The notes below the pieces were generated by a model that saw nothing but the letters and a program-made list of their open reading frames with translations, was not told the DNA's origin and did no database searches. Positions 1-6,235 of a stretch of 6,892 bases of DNA are shown here, in pieces. Each line of letters starts with the position of its first letter. The stretch's first letter is position 1. The position numbers were made by a program, and so were the translations under genes. The stretch spans positions 1 through 6,892 of the forward strand of contig JALSQH010000240.1 of NCBI GenBank assembly GCA_026985515.1, read 5' to 3'. This stretch comes from a bacterium (GTDB lineage: Bacteria; JALSQH01).

Positions 1-665
1 TTTTAGAGGATAAAATGGTTATGCCTCTGGGGGGAAGTACCCCTGTTCAGCTTGATGTGAGAATAATTGCCGCCACCAATCGCAATCTTGAAGAGATGGT
101 TGAGAAAGGGGAATTCAGGGAGGATCTCTACTACAGATTAAAGGTATTTTCCATAAAACTTCCACCCCTCAGAGAGAGACTTGACGATATTCCGCTTCTG
201 GTAGAGCATTTCTTGTGGAAATTCAAAAAAATACATGGAATTGAGGAAAAGGAATTTACAGAAGAGGCGATAAATCTGTTAAAGAGTTACTCCTGGCCTG
301 GTAATGTGAGAGAGCTGGAAAATACTCTTCTGAGAATTGTTCTTACCGTCCCGGGAAGGATAATTACGCCGGAGGATGTGGGAAGATTTATAAAAAGTGA
401 CATCGAAGTGCGGGAAAAGAGTTTTTCAGATGTGGTTTACGATTATCTTAAGGGAATTTTTGACTCACTTAATATTCCTGAAAATGGAAAAATGGATATA
501 TATCATGAGGTCATAAAAAGAGTTGAAGAACCCCTCATAAAACTTGCACTTGAAAAAACCAGATGGAATCAGGTCAGAGCAGCTGAACTTCTCGGGATTA
601 ACAGAAACACCCTCAGAAAAAAGATAAGAGAACTGGGAATAAATGGGGAAAAGAGAAATTCTTGA
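1..665 (+). CDS. NtrC-family sigma-54-dependent activator, 3' part only
   Basis: This is the C-terminal part of an enhancer-binding protein that uses ATP to remodel sigma-54 RNA polymerase at -24/-12 promoters. The reading frame is open from base 3, ahead of the first ATG at 15, and already encodes AAA+ sequence there, so the true start lies outside the window. Visible in order: VRIIAATNR (sensor I region, nt 57-83), FREDLYYRL (arginine-finger region, nt 114-140), PPLRER, the sensor II motif WPGNVREL (nt 294-317), a linker, and a Fis-type helix-turn-helix with AAELLGINRNTLRKKI (nt 579-626). Walker A, Walker B and the sigma-54-contacting GAFTGA loop would lie upstream, as would any receiver domain, so whether a histidine kinase controls it is unknown. 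The DNA-binding end resembles NtrC itself. The stop overlaps the thiE start by 23 bases, indicating cotranscription. Family assignment is sure; the target genes are not known. Confidence 0.95.
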   Translation, partial: LEDKMVMPLGGSTPVQLDVRIIAATNRNLEEMVEKGEFREDLYYRLKVFSIKLPPLRERLDDIPLLVEHFLWKFKKIHGIEEKEFTEEAINLLKSYSWPGNVRELENTLLRIVLTVPGRIITPEDVGRFIKSDIEVREKSFSDVVYDYLKGIFDSLNIPENGKMDIYHEVIKRVEEPLIKLALEKTRWNQVRAAELLGINRNTLRKKIRELGINGEKRNS

Positions 666-1293
666 AAATTACAGAGGACTCTACGGTATAGTTGATCTTG
701 CTTTCAAGGATCATCTTCCGCCAGTGGAATGGGCGAAGATTTTTGTCAGAAACAGTATAAAAGTGATTCAATTAAGGGGGAAAAAGGTTTCCGATGCAGA
801 ACTTTTTAAATGGGCAGAAAAGTTGAGGGAGGTTATTCCTGAAGAATTTATCTTTATCGTAAATGACAGACCCGATATTGCACTTCTAACCGGTGCAGAT
901 GGTGTTCATGTGGGGCAGGATGACATTCCACCTGACGCAGTAAAAGAGAAATTCTCCCACTTAATTGTTGGTTTTTCCACTCACAATTTTGCCCAGTTCC
1001 TTCAGGCTGAAAAAACTCAGGCCGATTATGCAGGCTTTGGGCCCATTTTTCCGACAACCAGTAAGGATAAACCTGACCCGGTGACCGGAATCAAGCCTCT
1101 CGAAGAAGTTGTGAGCAGGAAAACTCTGCCAGTTGTGGCAATCGGGGGAATAAACAGAGAAAGGCTGATTGAAATTCTCAATGTTGTTTGTCCTGAGATG
1201 TTTTCTGTTGTTTCTGCAATTGCTCTCTCCAGCGACCCGGAAGAGGAAGTTAGAATCCTGCAGGAGACCTATCTGACCAGGTGCAGGAAATAG
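643..1293 (+). CDS. thiE: Thiamine-phosphate synthase ThiE
   Basis: Predicted cytoplasmic TIM-barrel enzyme joining hydroxymethylpyrimidine diphosphate and thiazole phosphate to give thiamine phosphate and pyrophosphate. At 216 residues it has the usual family length. Visible motifs are IQLRGK (residues 42-47, phosphate/pyrimidine site), FIVNDRPDIAL (71-81), ADGVHVGQDD (85-94, with the Mg-binding type of Asp), GFSTHN (110-115), GFGPIFPTTSK (131-141) and VVAIGGI (164-170, thiazole-phosphate loop). The VHVGQDD and PTTSK motifs favour ThiE over its paralogue TenI, though that split is by eye. The ATG at 643 lies inside the preceding regulator gene. Only a weak purine run (GGGAA at 635-639) precedes it, so translation may be coupled to the regulator. 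No other thiamine gene and no recognisable TPP riboswitch is present, so it appears to be a stand-alone thiE expressed with its operon. Confidence 0.93.
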   Translation: MGKREILENYRGLYGIVDLAFKDHLPPVEWAKIFVRNSIKVIQLRGKKVSDAELFKWAEKLREVIPEEFIFIVNDRPDIALLTGADGVHVGQDDIPPDAVKEKFSHLIVGFSTHNFAQFLQAEKTQADYAGFGPIFPTTSKDKPDPVTGIKPLEEVVSRKTLPVVAIGGINRERLIEILNVVCPEMFSVVSAIALSSDPEEEVRILQETYLTRCRK

Positions 1294-1833: not shown

Positions 1834-2922
1834 ATGGATATTCTGGAAAAGATCCCTTCAAGAAGAGAAGTAATTGAAAGCTTTAAAAGTACCGGTGGTA
1901 AAATAGCCGCAGTGTATCCTTACCACTACCACAGAGCATTATTCAGGGCGTTTGATATTCTGCCTGTGGAAGTCTGGGGTCCCCCGGGGATTGATACAAC
2001 CTATGGTAGTTCATATCTTCAACCCTACGTTTGTTCTGTTGTTCACAGTGGTTTGTCCTTTTATCTCTCGGGTGGACTGGATGTTGTTGATTTCATAGTT
2101 GTTCCTCATGCCTGTGATTCTCTGCAGGGACTCGGAAGCGTTTACATAGATTTTGTTAAGCCGAAGCAGCCGGTTTTCACCATTTACATTCCCAGAGGAA
2201 GAAAGGATCTGGATGTAGAGTTTCTTTCAAAGGAGTTTGAAAGTATTTTCAACAGGTTAAAGGAATTAACGGGCAAAAGTGTCACTGAAGATAAATTGAT
2301 GGAGGAGATTCTGAAAGAAGAGGAAGCTCTGAAAAAAGTCAGGGAACTGTATAGCAAAAGGGAGCAGATCTCTCTCTCCGATTATCATTTTTACCGGGTT
2401 GTGAGGAGCAGAGAGTATCTTCCAGCGGAGAAATTTATGGAAATTGCTGATCATTTACTTGAGAATTTTTCAGATGGGACAGAGAGAGAGGGTGTGCCTG
2501 TGATTTTTTCCGGCCTTTTGCCTGAGCCCATGGAGATTCTGGAGAAACTTGAGGAGATAGATGGAAGAATTGTTGCTGACGATTTTGCCTGCTGTGGAAG
2601 ACGCCTTTACGGAGAGGGTAAAAGTAATAACCCCTTTGTGAGGATGGCAGAATCAATACTCAATTCTCCACCGGATAGTTCCCGCGGTGCCACGGTGGAT
2701 GAAAGGGTTGAACACCTTTCTTCACTTGTGAAAAAGTATGGTGCCAGGGGGGTTGTTTTTTACATTGTTAAGTTCTGTGAAATGGAACTGTTCTACATTC
2801 CACACATGATGCGTGGTTTAAAGGAGAGGGGGATACCCTCAGTTTACATAGAGGTGGACATAAATGATCCACTTCCTGACCAGACAATAACGAGACTTGA
2901 AGCCTTTGTGGAGGTTTTATGA
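1834..2922 (+). CDS. 2-hydroxyacyl-CoA dehydratase / benzoyl-CoA reductase-like small subunit (HgdB/BcrC type)
   Basis: Smaller of two iron-sulfur subunits of an enzyme in the 2-hydroxyacyl-CoA dehydratase family (HGD-D fold); 362 residues, close to HgdB- and BcrC-type subunits. Landmarks are the N-terminal [20 protein letters not shown] segment (residues 32-51), YLQPYVCS (61-68), [13 protein letters not shown] (89-101), DDFACCGRR (249-257), [14 protein letters not shown] (307-320) and a C-terminal IPSVYIEVD (334-342). C67, C94 and C315 occupy the positions expected of the three cysteine ligands of a [4Fe-4S] cluster. C253 and C254 are extra, in a loop where relatives place other residues. 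The ATG at 1834 follows GAGGAG (1823-1828). Its stop overlaps the next start as ATGA, so the two subunits are translationally coupled and probably made in equal amounts. Family is certain; the substrate is not predictable. Confidence 0.92.
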
Positions 2923-4247
2923 AGCTCATTGACACAATTAAATACAGATTGACAGTTGATGTGGCTGGTAGGGCTTTTTTGAGGTATGAAAGGTTTCTCA
3001 ATGCAAGAAGATTGAAGAATGCAAGGTTCAAAAGTGAAAATCTTGCTCCTCCACTCAGAATAAGTGCCTGGACAAAGGAACTGATCTCCCTTCACTACTT
3101 CAGGGGACGCTATGTGGAGGGTCATCAGCCAGTTGCATATGTCACTTCAGGTGGCCCCGTGGAGATTTTAAAGGCACTTGGTTACTATGTTATCTATCCT
3201 GAGAACCATGCAGCCCTTGCAGGTGCCAGACATGCTCAGATGGAACTGATTCAGTCTGCCGAGGAATTTGGATTTTCACAGGATATTTGCTCATATGTGA
3301 GAACTGACCTTGGCACAGCCCTCACAGGGAAAACACCGGTGGGTAAATTACCTAAACCTGATCTCCTTCTGGCATGTACCAACATCTGTCAGACGGTTCT
3401 TCACTGGTACAGGGTTCTCCAAAAAATTTTTAATGTTCCCCTTGTGGTTATAGACACGCCCTTTGTCTACACAGAGGCACCTCCCCATGCTGTTGAGTAT
3501 GTGAAGAAGCAACTGGAGAATGAGCTCATACCGGTGGCAGAGAGAGTTGCAGGAAGAACTTTGAAGGAGAAGAAGTTTAAAGAAGTTGTGAAGTACTCTA
3601 AGGATGCCACTGAATTGTGGCTTGAAATTCTTAATATGGGAAGGCACATTCCCACTCCCATTTCCATCTTTGATCAGTTCATCCACATGGCGCCAATAGT
3701 TGAGATGAGGGGGGATAAGGTAACAGTTGATTTTTACTATGCAATGTTGAAAGAGGTGAAGGAGAGGGTTAAAAAGGGGATCGGTTCAGTCAAAAATGAG
3801 AAAAAGAGGGTTCTCTGGGATAACCTGCCTGTGTGGTACAAACTAAGCAGGCTGGCAGCCGAGCTTGCAGATAGAGGGGTATCCATGCCCATTTCCACTT
3901 ATACCTATGCATGGGGCGAACTTGCTCCACTCATTGATATTGAGAGAGGCATGGAGTCAATGGCAAGGGTTTATCTCTACCCGATTCTCAACAGAGGAAC
4001 AGGTCATAAACTTGAGGTTATGAGGCAGATGGTGAAGGACTTCAAACTTGATGGTGTTATCCTTCATTCTGACAGATCCTGTAAGCCCTATTCCATTGGT
4101 CAGGTACCCCAGAGGAACAAGTTAATGGAGGAATTCGGGATTCCTGCTCTTCTTCTTGAAGCTGATCACAACGATGAGAGAGCCTTTTCGGAGGAACAGG
4201 TTGCTTCCAGAATTGCATCTTTTCTGGAAATGATGGAGGTGGCATGA
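2919..4247 (+). CDS. 2-hydroxyacyl-CoA dehydratase / benzoyl-CoA reductase-like large subunit (HgdA/BcrB type)
   Basis: Larger partner subunit, 442 residues, expected to carry the substrate-binding site and a second iron-sulfur cluster. Recognisable parts are the [16 protein letters not shown] segment (residues 74-89), the hallmark [10 protein letters not shown] (91-100), DICSY (122-126), [15 protein letters not shown] (150-164), [10 protein letters not shown] (173-182) and [18 protein letters not shown] (378-395), then LLLEADHND (411-419). C124, C153 and C388 are the likely cluster ligands; C157 is an additional cysteine close by. The PENHAAL motif and the length bring it close to BcrB/BzdO-type subunits. 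However, the operon has only one activator gene, as in 2-hydroxyglutaryl-CoA dehydratase, whereas class I benzoyl-CoA reductases have two. GGAGG at 2910-2914 supports the start, and ATGA overlaps join it to both neighbours. Whether it dehydrates a hydroxyacyl-CoA or reduces an aromatic or other acyl-CoA is open. Confidence 0.91.
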
Positions 4248-5044
4248 GCAGAGTGAAGGCAATAGGAATAGACGTGGGTTCCACCACAGCCAAAATAGTT
4301 GCTGTTGATGAAAATGGTGAAATGATTTGGCGTTACATAGAACCTACTGATCCCCGCATTGAGGATCAGGTTGACAGATTTCTTGAAAAATTGAAAGAGG
4401 AACTCTCAATTTCAGATGAAGAGTTGAAGAAAATTCCCATTGTTGCCACCGGTTACGGGAGGAAACTCGTTCATCAGGCAAAGAAGAAGTTGACGGAGAT
4501 CACCTGCCATGCAAAGGGAGTATATAAAAGCCTTGGTCATGGTGGAACACTTGTGGATATTGGGGGACAGGATAGCAAGGTGATTGTCATAAGCAATGAT
4601 GGAAAGGTCGTTGATTTCACCATGAATGATAAATGCGCTGCCGGTACAGGGAGGTTTCTTGAGAATACCGCCATGAGAATGAAGGTTCCACTTGACAAAA
4701 TGGGTGAACTTGCCCTATCTGCTCCCGAAGAGGTGAAGATTTCCAGTGTTTGCACCGTTTTTGCTGAATCGGAGATTATTTCCATGATAGCTCATGGTGT
4801 TGCTGTGGAACCTATCCTGAAGGGGTTGCACAGAGGACTCATTTCCAGGATAGTGGCAATGATAAGGAGTGTGGGTTTAACACCTCCACTCATGCTCTCT
4901 GGTGGAGTGGTAAAAAATCCCGCCGTAAGGAAAATGCTGGAAGAGGCAACAGGTCAGAAGGTTATTTTGCCCGAGTATCCCCAGTTCATGGGTGCCTATG
5001 GTGCTGCTCTGATTGCTCTTGAATCAACCAAAAGTGAAAATTAG
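4244..5044 (+). CDS. ATP-dependent activator (HgdC-like ASKHA ATPase) of the dehydratase/reductase
   Basis: A 266-residue activator of the HgdC/BcrAD family. In the family, a homodimer with one bridging [4Fe-4S] cluster hydrolyses ATP and passes one low-potential electron to the partner enzyme. Seen here are the N-terminal phosphate loop [11 protein letters not shown] (residues 7-17), VATGYGR (67-73), [10 protein letters not shown] (103-112), [13 protein letters not shown] (128-140), [13 protein letters not shown] (167-179), MLSGGVVKN (217-225) and the C-terminal MGAYGAAL (249-256). C131 and C170 are the two cluster ligands, two from each monomer, and sit in the expected contexts. Length matches HgdC (about 260) rather than the longer fused activators. 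The ATG is set by GGAGG at 4235-4239 and overlaps the preceding stop. No ferredoxin or flavodoxin gene lies nearby, so the electron donor must be encoded elsewhere. Confidence 0.95.
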
Positions 5045-5058
5045 GAGCGGAGGAAGAT

Positions 5059-6159
5059 ATGTCCCTCAAAATAGGAATTGTTGGATTACCAAATGTGGGG
5101 AAGTCTACCATTTTCAATGCCCTCACTTCTGCCAGATCTCAGGTGGCCAATTATCCCTTTGCCACCATCGATCCCCATGTGGGAATTGTGGATGTACCTG
5201 ATAAAAGGCTTGATAAACTGGCGGAGATTGTTAAACCGGAGATGGTGGTTCATGCAACCCTTGAAGTGGTGGACATAGCCGGACTTGTTAAAGGGGCAAA
5301 TAAAGGAGAGGGGCTCGGGAATCAGTTTCTCGATAATATCAGAAGGGTTGACGCAATTATCCATGTTGTGAGAGCCTTTCAGAATCCAGATATTGTGCAT
5401 GTCAGTGGCAAAGTTGATCCAAGAAGCGACATTGAAGTCATAAACACAGAACTTGTTCTTGCTGATCTTCAGGTCCTGGAGAGAAGAATAGAAAAGGTCT
5501 CCAGACTGGCAAAAAGCGGCGAGAAAAAGCTGAAGGAAGAACTGGAATTTTTGAAAAGGGTTGAGGCTTGGTTAAATGAGGGAAAAAAAATAATAAATAT
5601 GGAGTTATCTTCTGAAGAAAAAGAGTGGTTGAGGAATCTCCATCTTCTCACTACAAAAAAGATGCTCTATGTTATAAATGTTGATGAGGAGGGCTGGGAA
5701 AAGAAGGAATCTCACCCCCTTGTGAGAGAGGCAATTGCTTATATTAAAGAAGAGGGTAGCGACTATGTCATAATCTTTGGAAAGATGGAGGCTGAGATTA
5801 CGGAACTCGATCCAGGGGACAGAGCTGAGTTTTTGAAAGATGCAGGAATTGATGAACCGGGCCTCAACAGGGTTATCAGAAAAGGTTATCAGATGCTTGA
5901 TCTTATCACCTTTTTTACAGCCGGGAAGCCGGAGGTCAGGGCCTGGACTGTAAAAAGAGGAGCCACTGCACCTGAAGCCGCAGGGGTGATTCACTCAGAC
6001 TTTCAGAGAGGATTTATCAAAGCAGAGGTGATTCCTTTTGAAGAGTTTGTAAAGTATGGTTCAATGGCGGCGGCACGGGAAGCTGGTGCAGTCAGGATGG
6101 AAGGCAAAGATTATGTCATAAAGGATGGGGATGTTGTTTACTTCAGGTTCAATGTTTAA
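5059..6159 (+). CDS. ychF: YchF/OLA1-family ribosome-associated ATPase
   Basis: A 366-residue cytoplasmic P-loop ATPase of the Obg-related YchF family, which binds ribosomes and takes part in stress and translation control. Motifs are G1 GLPNVGKST (residues 9-17), the NYPFATIDP segment (31-39), G3 DIAGLVKGA (72-80), and NVDE (207-210) in place of the GTPase NKxD, the substitution linked to ATP preference. A coiled helical insertion follows G3 (about 130-200), and a C-terminal TGS domain begins at LITFFTAG (282-289) and ends at DGDVVYFRFNV. L76 after DIAG is the hydrophobic replacement of a catalytic glutamine typical of the family. The start follows AGGAGCGGAGG (5043-5053), 14 bases after the activator stop. 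The protein contains no cysteine at all, and A35 stands where E. coli YchF has Cys35. Its stop codon touches the CCA end of the opposing tRNA gene. Confidence 0.97.
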   Translation: MSLKIGIVGLPNVGKSTIFNALTSARSQVANYPFATIDPHVGIVDVPDKRLDKLAEIVKPEMVVHATLEVVDIAGLVKGANKGEGLGNQFLDNIRRVDAIIHVVRAFQNPDIVHVSGKVDPRSDIEVINTELVLADLQVLERRIEKVSRLAKSGEKKLKEELEFLKRVEAWLNEGKKIINMELSSEEKEWLRNLHLLTTKKMLYVINVDEEGWEKKESHPLVREAIAYIKEEGSDYVIIFGKMEAEITELDPGDRAEFLKDAGIDEPGLNRVIRKGYQMLDLITFFTAGKPEVRAWTVKRGATAPEAAGVIHSDFQRGFIKAEVIPFEEFVKYGSMAAAREAGAVRMEGKDYVIKDGDVVYFRFNV

Positions 6160-6235
6160 TGGTGGAGCCGAGGGGGATCGAACCCCCGACCTTGGCGTTG
6201 CGAACGCCACGCTCTCCCATCTGAGCTACGGCCCC
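6160..6235 (-). tRNA. tRNA-Ala (anticodon CGC), CCA encoded
   Basis: Read on the minus strand this is a complete 76-base cloverleaf. The 7-bp acceptor stem (GGGGCCG with CGGCTCC) contains a G3:U70 wobble, the main alanine identity element. The D arm is GCTC/GAGC. The anticodon stem TGGCG/CGCCA encloses the loop TTCGCAA, giving anticodon CGC for codon GCG. The variable loop is AGGTC, and the T arm GGGGG/CCCCT encloses TTCGATC. The discriminator is A, followed by an encoded CCA at 6162-6160. The last base of CCA abuts the ychF stop codon on the other strand. A CGC anticodon makes this the dedicated reader of GCG, which appears to be a minority alanine codon here although ychF has a tandem GCG pair at 6067-6072. 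Confidence 0.98.

Follow-up and report, generated by a model that had tools for sequence, protein, structure and literature searches.

Three coupled genes on a short bacterial contig encode what is, with a probability that we put at roughly three in four, an ATP-activated ketyl-radical 2-hydroxyacyl-CoA dehydratase. The earlier note on this DNA had recognised a radical acyl-CoA enzyme that is driven by ATP and belongs to the BCR/HAD family, an assignment that is supported by profile searches and by phylogeny, which place the system outside every characterised clade sampled. The note's view that the enzyme carries a hybrid of reductase and dehydratase features, by contrast, was rejected once reference sequences from both sides of the family had been compared. 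The window, the term used here for the whole stretch of DNA analysed, is the entire contig G000:C240 (6892 bases) and belongs to a 2.36 Mb genome that is distributed over 268 contigs and is 97.6% complete.

Gene organization and family placement

The open reading frames of the trio were confirmed where the earlier note had placed them (Table 1), and the three genes are coupled through ATGA overlaps at 2919-2922 and 4244-4247. In relatives, where the counts rest on mechanically called ORF starts, the same overlap (-4) joins the small- and large-subunit genes in 37/60 called pairs and the large-subunit and activase genes in 14 of the 45 called pairs. The trio is conserved over its full length at identities of up to 69%, in many phyla and with gene order kept, which takes it well past chance.

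Table 1. Genes and other features of the window.
Feature	Position	Strand	Profile match
Sigma-54 activator, 3' end only	3-665	+	
ThiE/TenI-like protein	643-1293	+	
DUF4442 protein, 164 aa	1328-1822	+	PF14539, 86.6 bits
Small (beta, HadC-like) HGD-D subunit, 362 aa	1834-2922	+	Pfam HGD-D, 192.9 bits
Large (alpha, HadB/HgdA-like) catalytic subunit, 442 aa	2919-4247	+	Pfam HGD-D, 240.9 bits
ATP-dependent activase (HgdC/HadI-like), 266 aa	4244-5044	+	Pfam BcrAD_BadFG
YchF	5059-6159	+	
tRNA-Ala(CGC)	6160-6235	-	

No gene within the window assigns a substrate. The DUF4442 gene ends 11 bases 5' of the small-subunit gene and encodes what we take to be, possibly, a hot-dog acyl-CoA thioesterase. A homologue of this protein was found near none of the fetched relatives of the trio; a conserved partnership was therefore rejected, and any link to the dehydratase system is uncertain. 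The sigma-54 activator and ThiE/TenI-like genes, which overlap each other by 23 bases (window 3-1293), are probably unrelated to the trio.

Two homologous HGD-D subunits together with one BadF/HgdC-type activase place the system in the HAD family in its broad sense. Within the family, no protein of the window reached the cut-off of the equivalog models for HadB, HadC, BcrB, BcrC, BzdN, BzdO or the double-cubane protein: the HadBC models NF052455 and NF052456 gave 264.4 of the required 750 and 132.9 of 700 bits, and the BcrBC models TIGR02260 and TIGR02263 gave 153.6 of 486.55 and 93.1 of 421.15 bits. The activase did exceed the TIGR00241 cut-off (258.3 bits versus 125.4). Compared by sequence with solved structures, the small subunit matches HadC best, the large subunit HadB, and the activase the activator of 2-hydroxyisocaproyl-CoA dehydratase (4eht).

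In a maximum-likelihood tree of 67 large subunits (LG+C20+F+G4), built without LcdAB and FldBC and with HgdA represented by one reference, the window's large subunit sits in its own clade of 30 rows with support of 100/97. BcrB+MbdO (100/100), BzdO and HadB+HgdA (100/100) are all separate from this clade. The window clade and HadB/HgdA share a group of 39 rows, whose support of 94/87 is just below the threshold for a firm branch. The clade itself is better established than the exact places of the PDB references, since only the aligned parts of these were used and BzdO is gapped. The earlier note had proposed that close clustering inside HgdAB or BcrBC would make this a known enzyme; the large subunit clusters inside neither HgdA nor BcrB.

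The proposed hybrid signature had been built on the PENHAAL motif and the length of the large subunit, both held to be BcrB-like, combined with a single activator of the dehydratase kind. Nine loci above the TIGR02260 cut-off served as BcrB references; eight of them can be read at this position, with PEINA in seven and PEVNA in the other, and L138, the ninth, yielded no such motif. The equivalent motif is PEINS in MbdO, GEPYA in BzdO and PENQAA in HadB. PENHAA is thus absent from the BcrB references, MbdO and BzdO, and it is present in HgdA of a Fusobacterium operon (L121), a protein that also has exactly the length of the window's large subunit. The ORFs of that operon resembling GctAB, GcdA and HgdC were named by reading unannotated sequences. 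The part of the claim concerning the activator holds, as one activase gene lies beside the trio, the arrangement of the HgdABC operon. Motif, length and single activase, therefore, all point to 2-hydroxyacyl-CoA dehydratases (HAD).

Cluster ligands and active site

The small subunit retains the three cysteines of HadC as C67/C94/C315, the residues listed in the earlier note; they are present in 79/79 aligned clade rows and form the predicted site of the electron-storage cluster. The double cubane of BzdN is held by Cys36/73/100/263/293/327 (PMC11971306). In the alignment to BzdN, C67, C94 and C315 are the equivalents of Cys 73, 100 and 327, and the other three columns read P29, A252 and D281, giving a cluster site of three rather than six cysteines. 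These three residues, and V160 of the large subunit in place of His131, set the pair apart from BzdNO. C253 sits one column off BzdN C263, and the alignment is hence uncertain by one residue at this point. This cysteine is not a universal ligand, as it is Cys in just 45 of 55 close-clade rows and missing in 10; either C253 or C254 is Cys in 46/55. Column 281, which is Cys in HadC, is Asp in 50 of the 55 rows, and H92, R256 and R257 are invariant in all of them.

A six-ligand double cubane, at which C253/C254 might hint, was rejected, given that P29, A252 and D281 replace three of the ligands and C253 is missing in 10/55 rows. We attach only a low probability to the proposal that the clade is a distinct enzyme acting on a new substrate class, with a cluster unlike that of HadC in which C253 or C254 could be the fourth ligand. 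A double-cubane-type reductase of small molecules, resembling DCCP, is extremely improbable. Weak similarity to DCCP speaks for it; against it, NF040772, the model of the double-cubane cluster protein, gave 90.7 and 78.7 bits against a cut-off of 350, there are two different subunits here, not one, and three of the six columns that hold the cluster cysteines in BzdN are not Cys in the small subunit. An AlphaFold model of the small subunit (43 sequences, mean pLDDT 95.2) has HadC as its top structural match (3o3n_B, Z 46.6, rmsd 1.6 over 360 residues), followed by BzdN (Z 42.8), DCCP (41.5) and MbdN (39.4). The predicted fold by itself does not show function.

In the large subunit the predicted cluster ligands are, by alignment, C124/C157/C388, equivalent to C84/C117/C346 of HadB, for which residue numbers come from the alignment of the two proteins, and to C95/C128/C380 of BzdO. 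The earlier note was right about C124 and C388 but had chosen C153, whose column is C113 in HadB, Gln in BzdO and Ile in MbdO; the ligand by alignment is C157. The active-site serine (S77, HadB S37, BzdO S44) and glutamate (E95, HadB E55, BzdO E65) are kept, and this three-Cys catalytic cluster with its Ser and Glu is that of the HAD family. E95 is the predicted acid/base. Also kept are Y126 and Y328, equivalent to Y97 and Y298 of BzdO and the predicted thioester tyrosines; the roles of BzdO residues are taken from the study of BzdNO (PMC11971306). The PEN stretch, K389 and V160 agree with HadB, which by the same alignment also has Val where BzdO has H131. The column of HadB F39 and BzdO W46 is G79 in the window and Gly or Ala in nearly all close relatives, which suggests a roomier pocket; a substrate bulkier than that of HadBC, again a 2-hydroxy acid, would be our guess from the sequence.

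These residues bear on whether the trio is instead an acyl-CoA reductase, either a dearomatising or an enoyl-reducing one, that would work like class I benzoyl-CoA reductase and spend ATP on each electron. Such an enzyme would belong to the same superfamily, the catalytic Glu and Ser are common to BzdO and the window's large subunit, and in the reductase MbdNO the small subunit, MbdN, likewise has just three of the six cluster cysteines, so that small-subunit ligands alone cannot exclude a reductase. The large subunit, however, groups neither with BcrB+MbdO nor with BzdO, lacks the PEINA motif and has V160 where BzdO has H131, and no second activase is found beside the trio, whereas MbdP/MbdQ and BzdP/BzdQ are each two different subunits. 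A reductase is thus unlikely, if not negligibly so; the dehydratase is the clearly likelier of the two because the single activase and the residues in the active-site columns both match the dehydratases.

The cysteines that the earlier note had assigned to the activase cluster, C131 and C170, are invariant in 60/60 aligned rows. The activase is predicted to be a homodimer with one [4Fe-4S] cluster, to which each chain contributes C131 and C170.

Distribution and genomic context

Relatives of the trio, with identities of up to 69%, are spread over about ten phyla or more. They were retrieved with the peptide patterns [IFV]YPENH[AG]A or [LY]WDN[LI][PA][IV]W, which inflates the apparent constancy of the PENH and WDN stretches. 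The best 80 loci are 43-69% identical and carry labels that include Acidobacteria, WOR-3, Thermodesulfobacteriota, Melioribacteraceae, Calditrichaceae, Anaerolineae, Desulfurellales, Myxococcota, Actinomycetota, Schekmanbacteria and Parcubacteria; nearly all derive from MAGs, in which binning errors are possible. On one Parcubacteria-labelled contig (L074), both subunits are preceded by two activase genes, an unusual find in that group and possibly a misbinned one. Matches in a plasmid collection were all below 60% identity, and a search of open-access papers found nothing on this clade.

Exactly two HGD-D matches, the trio's own pair, were found in 10 of 14 genomes searched, and most relatives have no conserved neighbour gene. 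The neighbourhood comparison suggested in the earlier note did reveal genes that recur at some loci. A FadD-like acyl-CoA ligase gene lies directly 5' on the same strand in 11/49 testable loci from several phyla, a family III CoA-transferase gene is 5' of the trio in L096 and L097 (one scanned, the other a clustered homologue), genes for GlcD-like and CCG Fe-S proteins (a GlcD/GlcF-like pair) lie 3' of it in L043, with clustered homologues in L065, and an aminotransferase cluster is common to L112, L115 and L116. These recurrent neighbours are consistent with a 2-hydroxyacyl-CoA route, but do not prove it. The ligase was rejected as an obligatory partner, as it adjoins the trio in only 11/49 loci and its best match in the host is 35% identical.

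It could be argued that the trio is a functionally divergent member of the family whose acyl-CoA site serves some other low-potential reaction, such as a step in cofactor or lipid biosynthesis. Divergent function would explain a distribution that is single-copy and poor in neighbours, and the clade has conserved residues of its own (H92 in the small subunit; Q158, T159 and S384 in the large). The trio does, however, retain every residue that the family has for acyl-CoA and for the clusters, and the neighbours that do recur are genes for CoA ligases and CoA-transferases; we therefore consider this reading quite improbable.

The earlier note had remarked that no CoA-transferase or beta-oxidation gene was in view, which simply reflects the fact that the contig ends with the window. 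The host genome does contain a family III CoA-transferase, AMP-binding ligases and 17 matches to the acyl-CoA dehydrogenase N-domain. The CoA-transferase (contig C85) is 38% identical to that of L096, and contig C104 encodes a GlcD/GlcF-like pair whose GlcD is 47% identical to that of L043. Both are consistent with a 2-hydroxy acid route, without proving it.

Three further loci deserve mention. The host's GlcD/GlcF-like pair lies near an ORF that, by eye, resembles a polyhydroxyalkanoate synthase (L149:3085-7504, G000:C104). On another host contig, a single 606-aa ORF seems to combine an HGD-D domain, matched by Pfam, with a BadF/HgdC-type activase domain (L038:1505-3325, G000:C208), and the ORF next to it (3322-4305) looks to be of the thiouridylase type; the activase part and this neighbour were identified by reading the sequence, not by profile. 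Among the relatives, L035:8912-15536 encodes a small subunit in which all six BzdN columns (29, 67, 94, 252, 281 and 315) are Cys; it adjoins a tandem pair of HadB-like large subunits, an AMP-binding ligase and a protein that clusters with acyl-CoA dehydrogenases. From its sequence, this locus seems genuinely to combine subunits of the BzdN and HAD types.

Proposed mechanism and comparison with known systems

As a 2-hydroxyacyl-CoA dehydratase, the trio would follow the published HAD scheme (PMC11574389), read together with the BzdNO study (PMC11971306). In relatives the acid may be activated by the FadD-like ligase or the family III CoA-transferase. ATP hydrolysis by the homodimeric activase, with its one [4Fe-4S] cluster, would drive a single low-potential electron into the small-subunit cluster (C67/C94/C315), from which it would move on to the catalytic cluster C124/C157/C388 of the large subunit, where the fourth iron would be open. 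With Y126 and Y328 holding the thioester carbonyl, the catalytic cluster would then reduce this group to a ketyl radical. Loss of the 2-hydroxyl and removal of the beta proton, for which E95 is the candidate acid/base, would follow, and the electron would go back to the catalytic cluster, leaving a 2-enoyl-CoA as product. We infer this scheme, from the electron path and the reaction to electron recycling and redox neutrality, stereochemistry and substrate, by homology with HadBC/HadI.

The trio marks a well-supported, uncharacterised branch of the radical enzyme family in uncultured bacteria of many phyla, where it is often the sole such system of a genome. In annotation the branch can be confused with class I benzoyl-CoA reductases; the markers that separate them are PENHAA versus PEINA, three versus six small-subunit cysteines, and V160 versus His131. 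A purified member would reveal which 2-hydroxy acid the host bacteria dehydrate.

Compared with known systems, the trio is ordinary in kind, uncharacterised in detail, and representative of a distinct HAD-type clade. With HadBC and its activator (PDB 3o3m, 4eht) it shares a two-subunit component D plus one activase, the same cluster ligands by alignment, the active-site Ser and Glu and, in the predicted model, the small-subunit fold. It differs from HadBC in the clade of its large subunit, in scores far under the NF052455/NF052456 cut-offs, in the Gly/Ala that the window clade has for HadB Phe39 and, relative to HadC, in Asp281 for Cys and usually Cys253 for Gln. In HadC the fourth ligand of the cluster is an unidentified thiol or sulphide, for which C253/C254 would be the candidate replacement in the window clade. 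HgdABC of the Fusobacterium operon has the same motif, large-subunit length and single HgdC-type activase; its HgdB, however, lacks Cys at all three of the ligand positions, its HgdA groups with HadB (100/100), and its operon contains GctAB- and GcdA-like ORFs that are absent from the window. The class I benzoyl-CoA reductases BcrBC, MbdNO and BzdNO share the superfamily fold, the three-Cys catalytic cluster and the catalytic Glu, but have PEINA or GEPYA in place of PENHAA, two activase subunits rather than one, and separate clades; BzdN has six cluster cysteines, three of which are found in the window's small subunit. Finally, DCCP (6eno) belongs to the same domain family, but is a one-chain homodimer with a double cubane, whereas the window encodes a heterodimer.
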